From positions 1 to 20,541 of the IMG/VR virus record IMGVR_UViG_3300035179_000901: a stretch of DNA of 20,541 nucleotides; one strand, 5' to 3'. The notes beneath the pieces are model-generated. The model worked only from the letters and a program-made list of their open reading frames with translations, ran no database searches and was not told where the DNA came from. The number at the start of each line of letters is the position of its first letter. Within the stretch, counting starts at the first letter, position 1. Below are positions 8,957 through 14,409 of the stretch, piece after piece. The position numbers and the translations under genes were made by a program. Source of the stretch: a virus.

Positions 8957-10540
8957 CTAGGCCTTGAACACGTATGTGGTCTTGCCTATCGTGAACCGCC
9001 GCCGCTCTCTCGTAATGCGCTTGCGCCCAGGCCCGCCGCTGCGGCTCACGCGGGCAATGAGGAACGGCGGGTAGCTGGGAGCGGGCTCCTGCCAGAACGC
9101 CATCACTACCGCGTCGCCATCGTCCGTCGAGCGGCCCAGCCGTTTGCGGATCTCCTCCTTGCTCTCGACCGCGATCTTGCCCGCGGACATGTCCCGCCAG
9201 TGAGGCGCCGTCAGGTCTCCGGTGAGCAGGTCGTCTGGCGGAAGGGCGATCTCGCGCCCATTGGCCGGGTCGAGCAGTTCCCGCAGTTTCCACCAGGCCG
9301 CGCTCCGTTTGTTCATGAAGCCGAGCTCTCCCGATCGGTCCTTCGCGTCAGTGTGCTCTGACGCGTTGAAGGCCCGCACCGCTTTGCCCTGCTCCTTGAG
9401 CCGGTCCACCACCCCGGCGCCGATGCCGATCACATCCACCACTGCCTCGCCGCCGTGAGCCTGCAGAATCCCTGCCACCGCCCCCGTCGTCTCCATCGTG
9501 TCGCGCTTCGAGGACCGTCGCAGCTCCCGGATGGCGTCGCCGTACCGGAGAGCGGTGACCGTCCGGTCTTCACCTCCTCGCGCCACATCCACCCCGCAGC
9601 AAGTGAACTCTCCCCACTCCCCCGAGTCCTCCAGCAGCCGCCATCTGTCGTTCGCCGCCTCCACCCAGCTCAGCGGGATCACGCCATCCTCGTCTGAGGA
9701 GGCGAACTCACCCATGACCCTATTCGCGAAGACCGCCGATCCTTCACCCCACTGCCTTCCTCGCTGCTCGGCCCACTCTGGCGAGACACGCCCGGCCGAG
9801 ACGCATTCTGCGAGGGTGACATGGCGCGTCCACCAATCCTCGTATCCGGGCTTGCGCTGGTGGATCTCGTAGAAGCGCCCCTGCGGCTCTCCCGGGGTTG
9901 AGATGGCGAGCGCATAGCATTGTCCGGATGCCAGCGCGCCCTCGGCCGCATCCCAGGTCGCTGGCGGGATCGCCTTCGCCTCATCAAACACGTAGAGCAG
10001 ATGCGAGGCGTGGGCCCCTTCAATGAGGTCCGGCTTGTCACTGGCCGCGGCGAAGGCCTCGCCGTGCTGCAGTTTCAGGGTGATCTGCAGTAGCTCCGTC
10101 CGCTCGTCGAAGCGGCCCCGGCCGATGCGCTGCCACAGCAGGCACCGGCTCCACTTGTGGATCTCCGGCCATAGATAGTGAGTGAGCTGCCGCCACGCGC
10201 TCGCGGTGGTCACCACCTTCCAATCGACACCCATCGCCTCCCGGGTGGCGGCGAACCACAACGTGCCCCACGCTGCGACTGCCGTCTTGCCCAGTGAGTG
10301 CGGTCCGCGCAGGGCCACGCGCCTCTCGGTCGCGAGCCTCGACAGCACCTCGGACTGGTAGCCAGTCGGCCCCTCCCCCTCATCCCACTCGAAGCACTCC
10401 AGCACGAAGCGGGCCGGATCGTCCCGGTAGCCGGCAAAGGAGACCTCCGCCGCCTGTGCCATGAACTCCCGAGCGACCAGGCCCAGCAGGCTATTCGGCG
10501 GTGGCTCTGTCGATCTCGTCGAGGCGCGCGGCCAGCTCAT
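8957..10540 (-). CDS. terL: Phage terminase large subunit
   Basis: This is the DNA-packaging motor. ATPase motifs are Walker A GPHSLGKT at residues 79-86 and Walker B LLYVFDEA at 181-188 (D186, E187). The C-terminal RNase H-like nuclease has its acidic triad at D318 (GVDVARGG), D369 (VVDVIGIGAG) and D476 (DDGDAVVMAF). At 527 residues it is full length with all catalytic residues present, so it looks functional. ATG at 10540 has GGGAG 7 bases upstream but overlaps the previous gene by 50 bases. ATG at 10462 (residue 27), with GGGAG very close to it, is an alternative that would remove most of the low-complexity N-terminus. It is the last sizeable gene of the minus-strand operon; no structural gene follows. 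Confidence 0.92.
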   Translation of the reverse strand: MSWPRASTRSTEPPPNSLLGLVAREFMAQAAEVSFAGYRDDPARFVLECFEWDEGEGPTGYQSEVLSRLATERRVALRGPHSLGKTAVAAWGTLWFAATREAMGVDWKVVTTASAWRQLTHYLWPEIHKWSRCLLWQRIGRGRFDERTELLQITLKLQHGEAFAAASDKPDLIEGAHASHLLYVFDEAKAIPPATWDAAEGALASGQCYALAISTPGEPQGRFYEIHQRKPGYEDWWTRHVTLAECVSAGRVSPEWAEQRGRQWGEGSAVFANRVMGEFASSDEDGVIPLSWVEAANDRWRLLEDSGEWGEFTCCGVDVARGGEDRTVTALRYGDAIRELRRSSKRDTMETTGAVAGILQAHGGEAVVDVIGIGAGVVDRLKEQGKAVRAFNASEHTDAKDRSGELGFMNKRSAAWWKLRELLDPANGREIALPPDDLLTGDLTAPHWRDMSAGKIAVESKEEIRKRLGRSTDDGDAVVMAFWQEPAPSYPPFLIARVSRSGGPGRKRITRERRRFTIGKTTYVFKA

Positions 10541-10949
10541 GCCATCGCTCCCGCGGGACGAAGTCCCGCATCAACTCCGCCACCTTCCGGACGGTCTCGC
10601 GCAGCTCGCTCCCCTGGTAGATGAACTCGGTTAGCTCGTGCTTCTGAGGTGGCGGCCCGTCGTGGTAATCGAAGATGAGCTTCACCAGCGCGGCATTGCC
10701 CTTGGCCGCGTTCACCACGATGGACTCGGTGAGCACGTCGTAGAACTCCTTCTCACCGCCCTTGCCGTCCTTCGCCTTCTTGCGCAGCGCCTGGATGAGC
10801 AGGTTCCGCAGGCTCTTGCTGCCCCGGGGCCGGCCGTCATTGCGCACTCCGGGCTGCCCGAAGCGAGTGTGAAGCGGCGGCTTCTTGTAGCCGACCTCGT
10901 AGTCGCCGCTCCCGTTTTCCTCCCGTTCCTGGGGAACAGCATCACTCAT
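10491..10949 (-). CDS. DUF5681-type phage protein, probable small terminase
   Basis: The product has 152 residues. The N-terminal block GYKKPPLHTRFGQPGVRNDG followed by RPRGSKSLRNLL matches the DUF5681 pattern (G-Y-x-K-P-P-x-x-x-R-F ... G-R-P-x-G-S-x-x-L), found in phage and prophage genes next to terminase large subunits. The C-terminal half is helical and charged. By position it probably fills the role of the small terminase subunit that selects the DNA to be packaged. ATG at 10949 is preferred over an upstream in-frame start because GGAAGGGAAGAG lies just before it and it overlaps the stop of the methyltransferase gene by 8 bases, consistent with translational coupling. Confidence 0.8.
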   Translation of the reverse strand: MSDAVPQEREENGSGDYEVGYKKPPLHTRFGQPGVRNDGRPRGSKSLRNLLIQALRKKAKDGKGGEKEFYDVLTESIVVNAAKGNAALVKLIFDYHDGPPPQKHELTEFIYQGSELRETVRKVAELMRDFVPRERWHELAARLDEIDRATAE

Positions 10950-11793
10950 CGCTCTTCCCTTCCTCACCTTCGGCCGCCTGACGCGCCGCCGCCACCTCGC
11001 CGAAGGTGCGGCCATCGCCAGCCAGGATCGCCTCCTTGCCGGTGAGCGTTTGCCAGCGAAGCACCGACACGTCCACGTAGGCCGGACTCAACTCCATACC
11101 GAAAGCGCGACAGCCCAACTGCTGGGCGGCGATGACGGCCGGCCCGCTGCCCAGGAACAGGTCCAGCACGATCTCTCCTGGCCGCAAGTGGTTGCGCACC
11201 GGGATGCGCCAGAGCTCCGTGGGTTTGGTGGTCGGATGCTGGTGCTCGCTCTGCCGGGCGATCTGCCAGACCGTCGACTGGTTGCGCTCGCCCAGGAAGG
11301 CATGGCGCTCCCGCCACCCATACAGGCATGGCTCGTGCTGCCAGTGGTAGTCGGAGCGGCTGAACTGGAAGCTCTCCTTGACCCAGACGATCTCCTGGTG
11401 CACCTCTACGCCTACAGAGCCCAGCGCGGCCAGGAACGCCGGCCGCGTGATCGAGGCATGCCAGACATACCAGGCTGCATCTTCGGTGGTATGAATGGCC
11501 GCGGCGCGGAAGGCGGCGGTGAGAAACGCTTCTAGCGCCGCTCCCTGCAGATCATCGTTGGCGATGGGATCATAGACTCTGCCCCCGCCGTGCTCCCGCC
11601 GGTGCGCGTTGCCGTCATAGGCGACGCCATATGGCGGATCGGTGGCAAGAAGGCCCGCCCTCTCTCCTGCCATCAGCCTCTCGACCGCGGCCGGATCGGT
11701 GGAGTCCGCGCACATGATGCGATGCTGCGGCATCGGGACCGCGGTGAAGCGCTTGCCGCAGTGTCCGCAGGTGCACTCAATGGTTTCGCTCAT
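10942..11793 (-). CDS. DNA methyltransferase B, N6-adenine/N4-cytosine class
   Basis: This 283-residue enzyme would transfer a methyl group from S-adenosylmethionine to an exocyclic amino group of DNA. The catalytic motif DPPY is at 52-55. A motif-X-like HPTTKP is at 186-191. The SAM-binding motif DLFLGSG is at 211-217, near the C-terminus, so the order is that of beta-class enzymes. A small CxCxxC element (CTCGHCGKRF) precedes a H-R-I-M-C-A-D-S-T segment. The motif I threonine normally following FxGSG is proline here (GSGPAV), a deviation of unknown effect. ATG at 11793 is chosen over the longer ORF because GGAGG lies 6 bases upstream. It overlaps methyltransferase A by 17 bases. It may protect element DNA from host restriction. 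Confidence 0.88.
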   Translation of the reverse strand: MSETIECTCGHCGKRFTAVPMPQHRIMCADSTDPAAVERLMAGERAGLLATDPPYGVAYDGNAHRREHGGGRVYDPIANDDLQGAALEAFLTAAFRAAAIHTTEDAAWYVWHASITRPAFLAALGSVGVEVHQEIVWVKESFQFSRSDYHWQHEPCLYGWRERHAFLGERNQSTVWQIARQSEHQHPTTKPTELWRIPVRNHLRPGEIVLDLFLGSGPAVIAAQQLGCRAFGMELSPAYVDVSVLRWQTLTGKEAILAGDGRTFGEVAAARQAAEGEEGKSDE

Positions 11794-12526
11794 CGCGCAC
11801 CTCCAGGAAGGTCTGTCCGGTCGCGGAAAGAACGGGCTGTCGCTCGGTGAGCTGCATCCAGCGCAGTAGGGCGACATCCACATAGGCGGGCGAGATGTCC
11901 ATGCCCAGACACCTCCGCCTCACCTGTTCCGCCGCGACCAACGTCGTGCCGCTGCCAAGGAAGGGCTCGAGGATTGCGGCGCCCTCACCGGCATAGGTCT
12001 TCAGCAGGTCGGCCCACATCCGCACCGGCTTGGGACAGGGATGGCCGCCGGTGTCCTTGTGGGTGCCGGCCGGGAAATCGAAGACGTCGTTGGGTCTTCC
12101 CCGCGGCCAGCGCTCGCCGAAGAAGAGAACCGGCTCCCAGCACCAGAAGCGCGACACTTTGCCGTTGGTCATCGCGTTGGTCTTGATCCAGGGAGCCACG
12201 TGGTAGGCTTCGAAGAGCCGCAGCCACAGGGGGAGGTTATTGCAGCCGGGCGTGACGATCTGCCGCCGACTCAGAGAGCGCGCTGCCTCAAACCACTGCC
12301 TTGTGAACTCCCGATAGGCTTCCGCGCTCTTGCTGTCGTCGGTCTCCTCGTCATATCCCAGGCCGACATTGTAGGGCGGATCGGTCACCAGCAGCTCGCA
12401 GGCCTCGCCGGAGGTCAGCGCCGTCAGATCCGCCTCACTGGTCGCATCGCCGCAGAGCACGCGATGCTTCACCTGTGGCTCCGCTTCGAATCGATGCCCG
12501 CAGTGCTGACAGGCGCATTCAGACAT
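11777..12526 (-). CDS. DNA methyltransferase A, N6-adenine/N4-cytosine class
   Basis: The product has 249 residues. DPPY is at 49-52, a motif-X-like HPCPKP at 162-167 and PFLGSGTT at 188-195, in beta-class order. The N-terminus CACQHCGHRF then HRVLCGDAT parallels methyltransferase B, as does the C-terminus SPAYVDVALLRW...GQTFLEV. The middle, which should hold the target-recognition region, is unrelated between the two. They are therefore diverged paralogues with probably different recognition sequences. ATG at 12526 has GGGAGG 7 bases upstream. It overlaps the ParB gene by 8 bases. The segment LGR...HRVLCGDAT is the usual junction between ParB and methylase in fused phage proteins, suggesting the two genes derive from one fused ancestor. 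Confidence 0.88.
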   Translation of the reverse strand: MSECACQHCGHRFEAEPQVKHRVLCGDATSEADLTALTSGEACELLVTDPPYNVGLGYDEETDDSKSAEAYREFTRQWFEAARSLSRRQIVTPGCNNLPLWLRLFEAYHVAPWIKTNAMTNGKVSRFWCWEPVLFFGERWPRGRPNDVFDFPAGTHKDTGGHPCPKPVRMWADLLKTYAGEGAAILEPFLGSGTTLVAAEQVRRRCLGMDISPAYVDVALLRWMQLTERQPVLSATGQTFLEVRDERNH

Positions 12527-13154
12527 CAGTGAGCCTCCCACAGCGCGGACAGCGTGCCACCCGGCCCAGCAGCCACAGATCGCCCGGGCGCGTCACCGGC
12601 TGGGCGGGAGGTTCGGGCGCATCGACTTCCTGGGGCTCTTCCTCAGGCTCGAACTGCGCCATCAGTTCGGCCAGAGCGGCCTCCGTGAAGCCGGTGATCT
12701 CCATGTCCGCACCCAGGACCTGGAGCATTCCGGAGTCCAGTTCCTGGAGCAGCTCGGCGAGGGTGGGATTGTCCATCTCCGACAACTCGCTGAGGCGGTT
12801 ATCGGCGATGAGGTCCGCCCACTCCTCGGCCTCGGTGGCATAGTCCTGGCGGTCAACCGGCACGAGGTCAACGCCCAGCAGCTTCGCCGCCGCCAGCCGG
12901 CCATGTCCGCGCACGATGAAGCCCGAGCGATTCGAGATCGTGATGGGCGCCCGCCAACCTTGGTGGCGGATGATCTTGCTGAGCAGGCGGATCTGCTCGT
13001 CCGAATGACGGTTCGGGTTTCTCGGATTCGGGACGAGTGCGTCGACATCCACGATCTCATCATGTGCGCAATGCACGGGAATTCCGGAGGCACAGACCGT
13101 CTCTGCCACGGCACTGGTAGGCCCACCCGCGAGATGCTCTGACGCCTGGTCCAT
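12519..13154 (-). CDS. ParB-like domain protein, companion of DNA methyltransferases
   Basis: Residues about 34-125 show the ParB/sulfiredoxin-fold pattern: V-D-V-D-x-L-V-P-N-P-R-N-P-N-R-H (35-50), then FIVRGHGRLAAAKLLG (79-94) and EEWADLIADNRLSEL. The VRGHGR motif is the conserved nucleotide-binding loop of the family. A helical segment and an acidic-proline linker follow, ending in TRPGDLWLLGR, which in phage ParB-methylase fusions runs straight into the methylase domain. Here it is followed by a short tail with CPRCG and a stop. It is first in the operon ParB-MTase-MTase-DUF5681-TerL. The role is probably DNA binding or nicking with the methylases rather than plasmid partition, since no ParA is present. 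The start ATG at 13154 follows AGAGGTGGGAG. Confidence 0.85.
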   Translation of the reverse strand: MDQASEHLAGGPTSAVAETVCASGIPVHCAHDEIVDVDALVPNPRNPNRHSDEQIRLLSKIIRHQGWRAPITISNRSGFIVRGHGRLAAAKLLGVDLVPVDRQDYATEAEEWADLIADNRLSELSEMDNPTLAELLQELDSGMLQVLGADMEITGFTEAALAELMAQFEPEEEPQEVDAPEPPAQPVTRPGDLWLLGRVARCPRCGRLTDV

Positions 13155-13172
13155 CTCCCACCTCTTCCCTCA

Positions 13173-13187
13173 GCCGCAAGTTGCGGC
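13173..13187 (-). promoter_or_regulatory. Hairpin just before ParB ribosome binding site
   Basis: GCCGCAA-G-TTGCGGC is a perfect 7-1-7 palindrome ending 19 bases before the ParB start codon. As RNA it would form a 5-bp stem with a 5-base loop directly upstream of the Shine-Dalgarno sequence. Another small dyad, TCACA-GA-TGTGA, lies at 13191-13202. Confidence 0.4.
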
Positions 13188-13204
13188 CGATCACAGATGT
13201 GAAC

Positions 13205-13319
13205 CCGAAAAAGACAAAGCCGGCCCCTGGGGTAGAGATCGGGTCATGACTCCGACCGCTACCTCAGACGCCGGCTACGCGTCGCCAGCTCTCACCCCAA
13301 ACCCACAGGGCCAGGGGCC
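13205..13319 (-). promoter_or_regulatory. Structured leader with terminator-like end, candidate attenuator
   Basis: Read on the minus strand, GGCCCCTGG (13319-13311) pairs with CCAGGGGCC (13230-13222), closing a region of about 98 bases. Inside, GGGGTGAGAG pairs with CTCTACCCC, GACGC pairs with GCGTC (13283-13279 with 13271-13267), and CGGTC pairs with GACC(C)G, so several helices share one closing stem. The closing stem is followed by GGCTTTGTCTTTTTCGG, a U-rich tract. It can serve as terminator of the toxin-antitoxin transcript, and, because a predicted promoter lies just before it, as an attenuator in the leader of the ParB-methylase-terminase operon. Confidence 0.5.
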
Positions 13320-13323
13320 TAGT

Positions 13324-13371
13324 TTCACTCAGTGAATTCTACCACAACAGATGCACGTTGACTAGTGCATC
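13324..13371 (-). promoter_or_regulatory. Predicted promoter with two operator dyads for ParB operon
   Basis: On the minus strand TAGTCA (13364-13359, 4 of 6 matches to -35) and TAGAAT (13341-13336, 5 of 6 matches to -10) are 17 bp apart. A perfect dyad GATGCAC-8-GTGCATC (13350-13356 and 13365-13371) is centred on the -35 box. A second perfect dyad TTCACT-C-AGTGAA (13324-13336) covers the edge of the -10 box and the expected start site near 13329. This layout suits repression by a dimeric regulator. It is 170 bp upstream of the ParB gene. Confidence 0.5.
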
Positions 13372-13415: not shown

Positions 13416-13793
13416 CTAGACAAGGCCCTGTTCGTTCATTATGTCCAGAAATCCGAGGGGGAAATGGTCCGAGACGGCGGCCCCCTGGCGTATCTTCTTC
13501 AACACCTCAGGGCTGACGGCAGGACGTTTGACGAAGACCCCCTGGTCAAGTTTGCTCCGCACGACCGCTGGAGGCAAAGCCCTAGCGTCAGCGTAATTCA
13601 CGAATGTCTGGCGCGTGATGAAGTCCTTGTGATCTTCCCGCTGTAGCACACAGGATTCATCCTGGCATACCGGGGAGCTAGTAAGGTTCACCGTGATTAC
13701 GTAGGCAAGGGCGTCCTGCGCGGGGTCGGAGATAACCACCCAGAGGTGATTGTCGGAGCCGTCTGTGTAGAGAAAGGTATCCCCAGCCTTCAT
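13416..13793 (-). CDS. Putative PemK/MazF-like toxin of Panacea TA pair
   Basis: This 125-residue protein begins MKAGDTFLY and continues HLWVVISDP...AYVITVNLTS, then CVLQREDHKDFITRQTFVNYADAR. The opening strands (a G-D-x-F/Y start, W-V-V-I-S-D-P, V-x-V-N-L-T) resemble the PemK/MazF-type fold of small proteins paired with Panacea antitoxins. If so, it would be an RNA-cleaving or otherwise growth-blocking toxin. The start codon ATG directly abuts the TAG stop of the antitoxin gene with no base between, the arrangement of a translationally coupled TA pair with the antitoxin first. Family assignment rests on pattern and neighbour, since no strongly diagnostic catalytic motif is visible. Confidence 0.7.
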   Translation of the reverse strand: MKAGDTFLYTDGSDNHLWVVISDPAQDALAYVITVNLTSSPVCQDESCVLQREDHKDFITRQTFVNYADARALPPAVVRSKLDQGVFVKRPAVSPEVLKKIRQGAAVSDHFPLGFLDIMNEQGLV

Positions 13794-14348
13794 CTACGAC
13801 TGGATGCCGAACACGGTGTTGAACTTCGCCACGCGCTTGGCATCCCTGACGATTCTCATGGTTTCGCCAGCTCTGCCTACGGCCGCCAGAACATCCTCCA
13901 TAGGAATGGGCTGTGATGACCCACGCTTGTGGTTCCTGGCCCATTCCTCAAAGCCATGCGTGAGGCGCGTCAACTCGCTGTCCGACATACCAGTGTATTT
14001 TGCCGCTGTCTCGCGGAGCTTCTGCACCTCGTATCGAGACAGGTGCTTCACTCCAGGATCGGCTAGCAGTCGGACCTCAACGGAGATATTCCCAAGGAAC
14101 TCGGCCCATACCTCCTCGCCCGGAGCAGAGCCCTTGATGAGGTCATATACCTTCCCGTGTACCGGCCCCTGGTCCATTGCAACCAGTTCTGTTCCGATGA
14201 TGGGCCTTCCAACCTCGCGCAGGCTCTCCCTGTCGGCGACATAGAGGAGCTTCAGAAGCCTACGCCGTCCCATGCGATGGTCCTGGCGAGACTGCAGGAG
14301 AACCGCGACCGCTTCGACTATCTTCCTTGTGCCGAACTGGAAGTACAT
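13794..14348 (-). CDS. Panacea-domain (DUF4065/SocA-like) antitoxin
   Basis: The product has 184 residues. The block RRLLKLLYVADRESL followed by GRPIIGTELVAMDQGPVHGKVYDLIKG is characteristic of the Panacea (DUF4065, SocA/GepA) domain, with the L-L-Y-x-A-D-R/Y and G-P-V-x-x-x-V-Y-D motifs. C-terminally it is helical, with an EEWARNHKRGSSQPIPMEDVLAAVG segment. Panacea proteins neutralise unrelated toxins, some acting like chaperones or proteolysis adaptors. ATG at 14348 is preferred over one at 14372 because GGAG sits 8 bases upstream and the predicted transcript would start near 14374. It is the first gene of a two-gene operon and keeps the element in its host by addiction or protects against other phages, both inferences. 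Confidence 0.85.
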   Translation of the reverse strand: MYFQFGTRKIVEAVAVLLQSRQDHRMGRRRLLKLLYVADRESLREVGRPIIGTELVAMDQGPVHGKVYDLIKGSAPGEEVWAEFLGNISVEVRLLADPGVKHLSRYEVQKLRETAAKYTGMSDSELTRLTHGFEEWARNHKRGSSQPIPMEDVLAAVGRAGETMRIVRDAKRVAKFNTVFGIQS

Positions 14349-14369
14349 AGCTGTTCTCCGTGGCGGGAG

Positions 14370-14409
14370 CACTACGCAGTATTATAGCACACTACCACCT
14401 ATCTGACAC
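14370..14409 (-). promoter_or_regulatory. Promoter and operator of Panacea TA operon
   Basis: On the minus strand GTGTCA (14409-14404) and a perfect TATAAT (14386-14381) are 17 bp apart, with TGC before TATAAT giving an extended -10. The hexamer CACTAC (+ strand) occurs at 14370-14375 and 14390-14395, exactly 20 bp apart and flanking the -10 box, so both copies lie on the same helix face. This suggests autoregulation by the TA proteins. The leader to ATG 14348 would be about 25 bases. Confidence 0.7.

Follow-up and report, generated by a model that had tools for sequence, protein, structure and literature searches.

A conserved leader RNA with a variable palindromic loop ahead of phage packaging-type operons, proposed to pair with its own copies

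How might a phage packaging operon be controlled by the long folded leader that stands in front of it? The question is raised by a locus on the minus strand of an IMG/VR virus record (IMGVR_UViG_3300035179_000901, positions 1 to 20,541), the whole of which, 20,541 nt, is here called the window. A preliminary description of the sequence had proposed a promoter under two operators and a multi-helix leader serving attenuation and translational control, and had guessed at a ligand. The leader is here read as an RNA that kisses copies of itself and, through the dimer, gates an attenuator of the packaging operon, a reading to which a probability of about 0.6 is given. Positions 13205-13346 hold a promoter-like site and then a strongly folded leader of about 110 nt; the features are collected in Table 1.

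Table 1. Features of the leader locus and downstream operon in the window
Feature	Position	Strand	Basis or remark
Extended -10 promoter element TGTGGTAGAAT	13336..13346	-	Promoter scan; motif in relatives
Conserved leader RNA, core of 108 nt	13213..13320	-	Match of covariance model R1
P1 5' strand GGCCCCUGG	13311..13319	-	Pairs with 13222-13230 in the closed form
P3 5' arm GCUGGC	13284..13289	-	Pairs with 13270-13275
Palindromic hexamer ACGCGU (DNA ACGCGT), proposed kissing loop	13277..13282	-	Invariant neighbours: G (13283), A (13276)
P3 3' arm GCCGGC	13270..13275	-	Common to the 5' arm of the terminator-like hairpin
P4 hairpin, loop palindrome UCAUGA at 13244-13249	13231..13263	-	Compensatory changes
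P1 3' strand CCAGGGGCC	13222..13230	-	Also in the 3' arm of the terminator-like hairpin
Terminator-like long hairpin (form B), AGCCGGC...GCCGGCU, includes P4	13218..13276	-	Fold of the full RNA; alignment counts
U-rich tail UUGUCUUUUU	13208..13217	-	T 56% over the first 10 nt, 20 elements
ParB-like gene, first of the downstream operon	12519..13154	-	Pfam ParB_N; PHROG 498/620
Two N6/N4 DNA methylases, presumed small terminase, large terminase	8957..12541	-	Pfam N6_N4_Mtase, DUF5681; phrog_2

The anatomy given in the preliminary description, including the strand, was correct; it did not note the central feature, the palindromic loop at 13277-13282, nor the long terminator-like hairpin with which the closed form competes. 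A perfect 9-bp stem, P1 (13222-13230/13311-13319), closes a domain of about 98 nt; a U-rich tract (about 13208-13218) follows 3' of the stem, and a further hairpin (about 13171-13187) lies before the ParB start and its ribosome binding site. In 3 of 1000 dinucleotide shuffles there is an equally long perfect helix around a loop of 60 nt or more, and the folding energy of the leader lies 3.5-3.9 SD below that of shuffles, none of 200 being as good.

Homologous leaders were first recovered, five in number, through ParB protein relatives in viral contigs; DNA patterns, more protein searches and a host-genome search brought the total to the 20 distinct elements of alignment A4, plus one divergent and one truncated, and all homologous elements stand at the head of packaging-type operons. 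A covariance model (R1) built from 15 elements, with the window left out, finds the window element at 87.7 bits (E 1.6e-13). Each record searched has one copy of the element, a weak second match in one of them being the opposite strand of the same place. Homology between contigs usually starts at the promoter or at the element boundary, upstream DNA is common to close pairs only, and in many members the element directly adjoins the start codon of the first gene.

The 28 pairs of A4, which was fitted to the model structure, are formed in 97.7% of cells across the 20 sequences. Covariation among homologous leaders, which had been named as the check on the leader, was found as compensatory changes in 9 of the 28 pairs, a score that 0 of 500 shuffles reach and no slide comes near; the helices are conserved, and A3, a MAFFT alignment made without structure, gives the same picture. 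Most pairs of P4 show compensatory changes across relatives; the lower hairpin and P1 consist mostly of invariant or G-U pairs, and eight P1 pairs (GCCCCUGG/CCAGGGGC) do not vary across the 15 sequences of A3. Helix cells hold 40 G-U against 2 A-C combinations (21 against 2 once the 19 that come from one constant U-G pair are set aside); since a G-U pair would be an A-C mismatch on the other strand, the molecule under selection is the RNA of the ParB-sense strand. The leader is a conserved RNA rather than a chance fold.

The RNA is preceded in the window by a sigma-70-like site at 13364-13336 (minus strand), with the -35 and -10 elements that the preliminary description had predicted; it is the sole promoter-like site in 2 kb. 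The strict extended -10 pattern recurs in 11 of the 20 elements, its end 14-23 nt 5' of the element, and related sites can be seen by eye in several more. Among the 20 elements inspected, two (L102 and L115) have no clear extended -10 site ahead of the element; contig ends remove the promoter in L087 and, in L175, the 5' half of the element. Two perfect dyads, 7-8-7 (13350-13356/13365-13371) and 6-1-6 (13324-13329/13331-13336), do lie at the window promoter, and about 1% of shuffles hold that many dyads in 55 bp; but they are not generally found in the promoters of relatives, and the double-operator promoter drawn from them is not supported. The hairpin before the ribosome binding site is confined to the window and its close relatives L002-L004, which speaks against a general translational control. 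As neither the dyads nor this hairpin is common to most relatives, both lie outside the conserved system. What does recur is a promoter-like site and a conserved, covarying ParB-sense RNA ahead of packaging-type operons.

No Rfam family matches the element at the gathering score, and a relaxed threshold brings up microRNA models only, far below their cut-offs, and no match to pRNA. Covariance models of ROOL, GOLLD and OLE give no match to the element, which at about 110 nt is not large, and blastn against isolated phages and plasmids finds none. The element is absent from 76 loci of other ParB relatives and from most of the ParB-methylase relatives examined; a pattern search with the promoter and 5' end gave one chance match lacking the RNA (L188). 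Two loci without the element (L173 and L176) have another hairpin in common, GCAGGCGAGCTTRCTCCC...GGCTCGCCTGYTTGCATT, just before the ParB-methylase gene, which is perhaps a different leader. Literature searches returned self-kissing RNAs and phage RNA cages, none with this position or a hypervariable palindrome, an absence that is no proof. The window leader is taken as the type member of a family of structured RNAs not described before, carried by a group of uncultured phages.

The part of this RNA that varies most is also the part whose symmetry is kept. The P3 stem (GCYGRC/GCCGGC; six pairs, or five with an A-C mismatch in 10 of the 20 elements) displays a hexamer with an invariant G on its 5' side and an invariant A on its 3' side. 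This hexamer, whose six positions were left free in the search patterns, is palindromic in 20/20 aligned elements and takes ten distinct forms (ACGCGU, CACGUG, CAGCUG, CAUAUG, CGUACG, GAUAUC, GUAUAC, GUCGAC, GUGCAC, and UCGCGA), the flanking purines never changing. Its mean pairwise identity is 0.298, near chance, against 0.800 for the rest of the element, and on a tree built without the hexamer, most of whose branches are poorly supported, no fewer than 14 changes are required to account for the ten states. Spurious pattern matches without the rest of the RNA carry a non-palindromic hexamer in all but one case. The half-sites of the ten A4 hexamers contain no AA, CC, GG or TT, and none of these half-sites is all A/T or all G/C; this may reflect limits on how strongly the loops kiss or, with as few as ten states, be due to chance.

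Change from palindrome to palindrome has served as an argument for homodimer and homo-oligomer contacts of the RNAs OLE and GOLLD (PMC12286853). In the present family the variable palindromic hexamer has the signature of homotypic loop-loop kissing: from the alignment we infer with some force that like molecules of the RNA bind in pairs by way of the self-complementary P3 loop between its conserved purines, and that changes in the loop are tolerated provided that the palindrome is kept. The P4 loop is palindromic too, in 15/20 elements, but with no more than three different sequences (UCAUGA, UAGCUA, UGAUCA), which makes it the weaker evidence. If the leader were an ordinary terminator or attenuator and its palindrome an accident, the terminator-like hairpin and U-rich tail of the window would be accounted for, but this reading is contradicted by the palindromes, since ten different hexamers would all be palindromic by chance at a rate of about (1/64)^10, and the symmetry of the loop is better conserved than the U tract; we consider it very improbable. 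A SAM riboswitch, suggested by the methylases downstream and raised as a guess in the preliminary description, is scarcely credible: the element has no Rfam match at the gathering score and none to a SAM riboswitch model, and such a switch leaves the variable loop unexplained, the hypervariable part being a self-complementary loop and not a ligand pocket.

Two contigs from two metagenomes (L082:899-7276 and L089:5943-12320) are 99.9% identical over these intervals with unrelated DNA upstream, the identity beginning exactly at the first base of the element, which is there a sharp recombination or module boundary. The 6,378 bases aligned from that first base contain six mismatches in total, and the six differences in the first 1,000 or so bases are the whole hexamer (TCGCGA in L082, GATATC in L089), so all mismatches are accounted for. 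As the two stretches are identical except for the hexamer, no protein encoded in them can be what reads the hexamer, and its natural reader is probably a further copy of the leader RNA itself.

The same pair bears on the possibility that the palindrome is a DNA operator centre for a dimeric regulator, for example an immunity repressor whose gene lies in the variable DNA upstream, the RNA structure then having another function. Operators are typically palindromic, the L082/L089 hexamer changed together with the upstream DNA, and the hypervariability is like that of immunity groups. An operator would not, however, lead one to expect perfect symmetry without a spacer in 20/20 elements, an asymmetric conserved G and A on either side, or placement in an RNA hairpin loop; no protein from the identical 6.4 kb can be the reader, the window and L089 have a recombinase, a primase and another gene 84-91% alike and yet differ in the hexamer, and hexamer counts in the contigs are near expectation. 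The operator is therefore held to be distinctly improbable. Two further readings of the hexamer were rejected: as a restriction site, since it is neither depleted nor enriched in the contigs and identical methylases occur with different hexamers, and as a cohesive end (cos), for which a self-complementary overhang has no reason and the G-U bias indicates RNA.

Around the P3 loop the RNA is predicted to have two folds. The closed form, with P3 and P1, and the terminator-like hairpin have strands in common and would be mutually exclusive; in the alternative form the CCCC of the P1 5' strand pairs with 13295-13298. In nascent RNA, with the 3' arm not yet transcribed, the computed probability of P3 is 0.10-1.00 among the elements and 1.00 in the window; in full-length RNA it is at most 0.11 in 19/20 elements and 0.02 in the window, since the 3' arm there takes up the shared strand to form the long hairpin. 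Forcing P3 in the complete RNA gives the closed form with P1, that is, the 9-bp stem already noted, at -57.0 against -59.3 kcal/mol for the best fold of the window, pseudoknot or kissing terms being left out of both values. In about half of the elements, the window among them, the form with P3 comes to within some 4 kcal/mol of the best fold, and in several the two forms are close to isoenergetic; in the remainder it is less stable than form B by about 6-10 kcal/mol.

The divergent element (L172:597-702) is syntenic, with a similar fold and compensated helices, and has an 18-nt P3 loop with no palindromic hexamer. A G to A change on its shared strand is matched by U-A in P3 and by A-U in the long hairpin, and by this three-way compensation both exclusive helices are kept. 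On these predictions the leader RNA would be bistable. The terminator-like hairpin is conserved; the tail, with T at 56% of its first 10 nt over the 20 elements against 18% in the window as a whole, is interrupted (longest run 1-6), and a simple terminator scan of the window did not flag the hairpin and tail. With the U tract interrupted, and weak in several members (L083, L086, L094), termination may not be general. The attenuation suggested earlier is thus upheld as to its parts (its own promoter, covarying helices and two competing folds), but the switching itself is a prediction from these parts.

It is from the variable palindromic loop and the exclusive folds together that a dimer-gated attenuator is proposed; everything beyond structure and palindromy is what we infer from them. 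P3 would form first during transcription. With no partner, the later 3' arm would invade P3 and yield the long terminator-like hairpin with its U-rich tail (form B). When a partner RNA keeps P3 in place, the 3' arm would pair instead with the 5' end as P1, giving the closed form (form A), which lacks the terminator, so that transcription would go on into the genes for ParB, methylases and terminase; kissing would shift the balance towards this closed form. The leader could in this way sense its own concentration, which would stand for phage genome copy number, and only that of its own kind. Whether it is by this means an RNA-only sensor of copy number and identity, each phage having a palindromic barcode and ignoring related co-infecting phages, is possible but doubtful; leaders of the same phage would then kiss as genomes multiply and switch the packaging genes on.

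The operon behind the leader begins with the ParB-like gene, whose ParB_N match (E 1.9e-4) is below the gathering cut-off, and runs on past 8957; phrog_2 is the terminase large subunit match, and the small-terminase label comes from gene order and weak matches only. Operons of relatives usually have ParB or ParB-methylase and then, where the contig reaches, the small and large terminase, the latter of at least two families, phrog_2 (window, L115) and phrog_38 (L083, L084). A multimeric packaging or scaffold RNA, akin to phi29 pRNA or to ROOL and GOLLD, would also stand at such a place: the leader would be released alone and, through its two self-complementary loops, would assemble into rings, chains or cages with a part in packaging or late infection. 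Two palindromic loops on one molecule, the position at the head of packaging-type operons of two large-terminase families, a promoter-like site and a terminator-like end of its own, and the kissing-loop homo-oligomers of the phage RNAs ROOL and GOLLD (PMC12286853) all fit that picture. It is nonetheless unlikely, as the second loop is non-palindromic in 5/20 elements, many members adjoin the first-gene start codon as a cis-acting leader would, and one element is common to different terminase families.

Upstream, the window encodes at 13416-14372 (minus strand) a protein with a Panacea/SocA antitoxin domain (192 aa, E 1.4e-18) and directly after it a 125-aa protein (phrog_19071); the two are likely a toxin-antitoxin pair. 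As to the host, the element occurs in 2/201 Armatimonadota genomes and 2/14 of one class; one carrier, a MAG titled Candidatus Hebobacteria, holds L112, and the other belongs to the same class group. Phage-type genes, such as a serine recombinase or a primase-like protein, are seen on inspection of both carriers' contigs, and the host of the window phage is probably in that Armatimonadota class group. On L167, a contig of a Ca. Hebobacteria MAG, the element heads a ParB-methylase and a presumed small terminase, followed by type I restriction-like genes and no large terminase, with a serine recombinase-like gene on the other side (by eye); this is possibly a decayed or defence-carrying prophage.

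The dimer-gated leader proposed here has parallels in several known RNAs. The HIV-1 DIS is a purine-flanked 6-nt palindrome in an apical loop of a 5' leader that can refold and sequester the loop (PMC7357161). The element resembles it in its 6-nt palindrome, conserved purine flanks and refoldable 5' leader, and in the 9-nt loop AG-CACGUG-A of L114, but it belongs to dsDNA phages and to a bacterial-type mRNA leader with a terminator-like alternative fold, has ten different palindromes among close relatives, and bears no homology to the DIS. With ROOL, GOLLD and OLE, which are phage, prophage or bacterial RNAs, it has in common a structured fold, palindrome covariation and kissing-loop homo-oligomers (predicted for the element); those RNAs, however, are several times larger than its 110 nt or so (many GOLLD exceed 800 nt), and ROOL and GOLLD often lie near tRNA islands, whereas the element heads a packaging operon and lacks an Rfam match. 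The phi29 pRNA is also a small phage RNA linked with packaging (the element by its genomic place beside packaging genes) and self-associating through loops, as proposed for the element, but it does so by two different complementary loops instead of palindromes, and the element is the terminase operon leader of other phages, with no Rfam match. As in attenuator leaders, two exclusive helices have a strand in common and the later one is terminator-like with a U-rich tail; the ligand of those leaders is a metabolite, a tRNA or a protein, whereas here it would be a copy of the same RNA.

Natural RNA homodimers have, to our knowledge, rarely been documented, and proof of one usually requires a structure. 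In this family sequence variation alone gives very strong evidence for a homodimer, with ten palindromes in one loop while the rest of the element is 80% identical. If the switch is real, it would be an RNA that regulates by binding its own copies, and, with neither protein nor metabolite involved, would tie packaging to the copy number of the phage; the ten loops, if they kiss as proposed, would make up a natural set of orthogonal kissing loops of use in RNA engineering.
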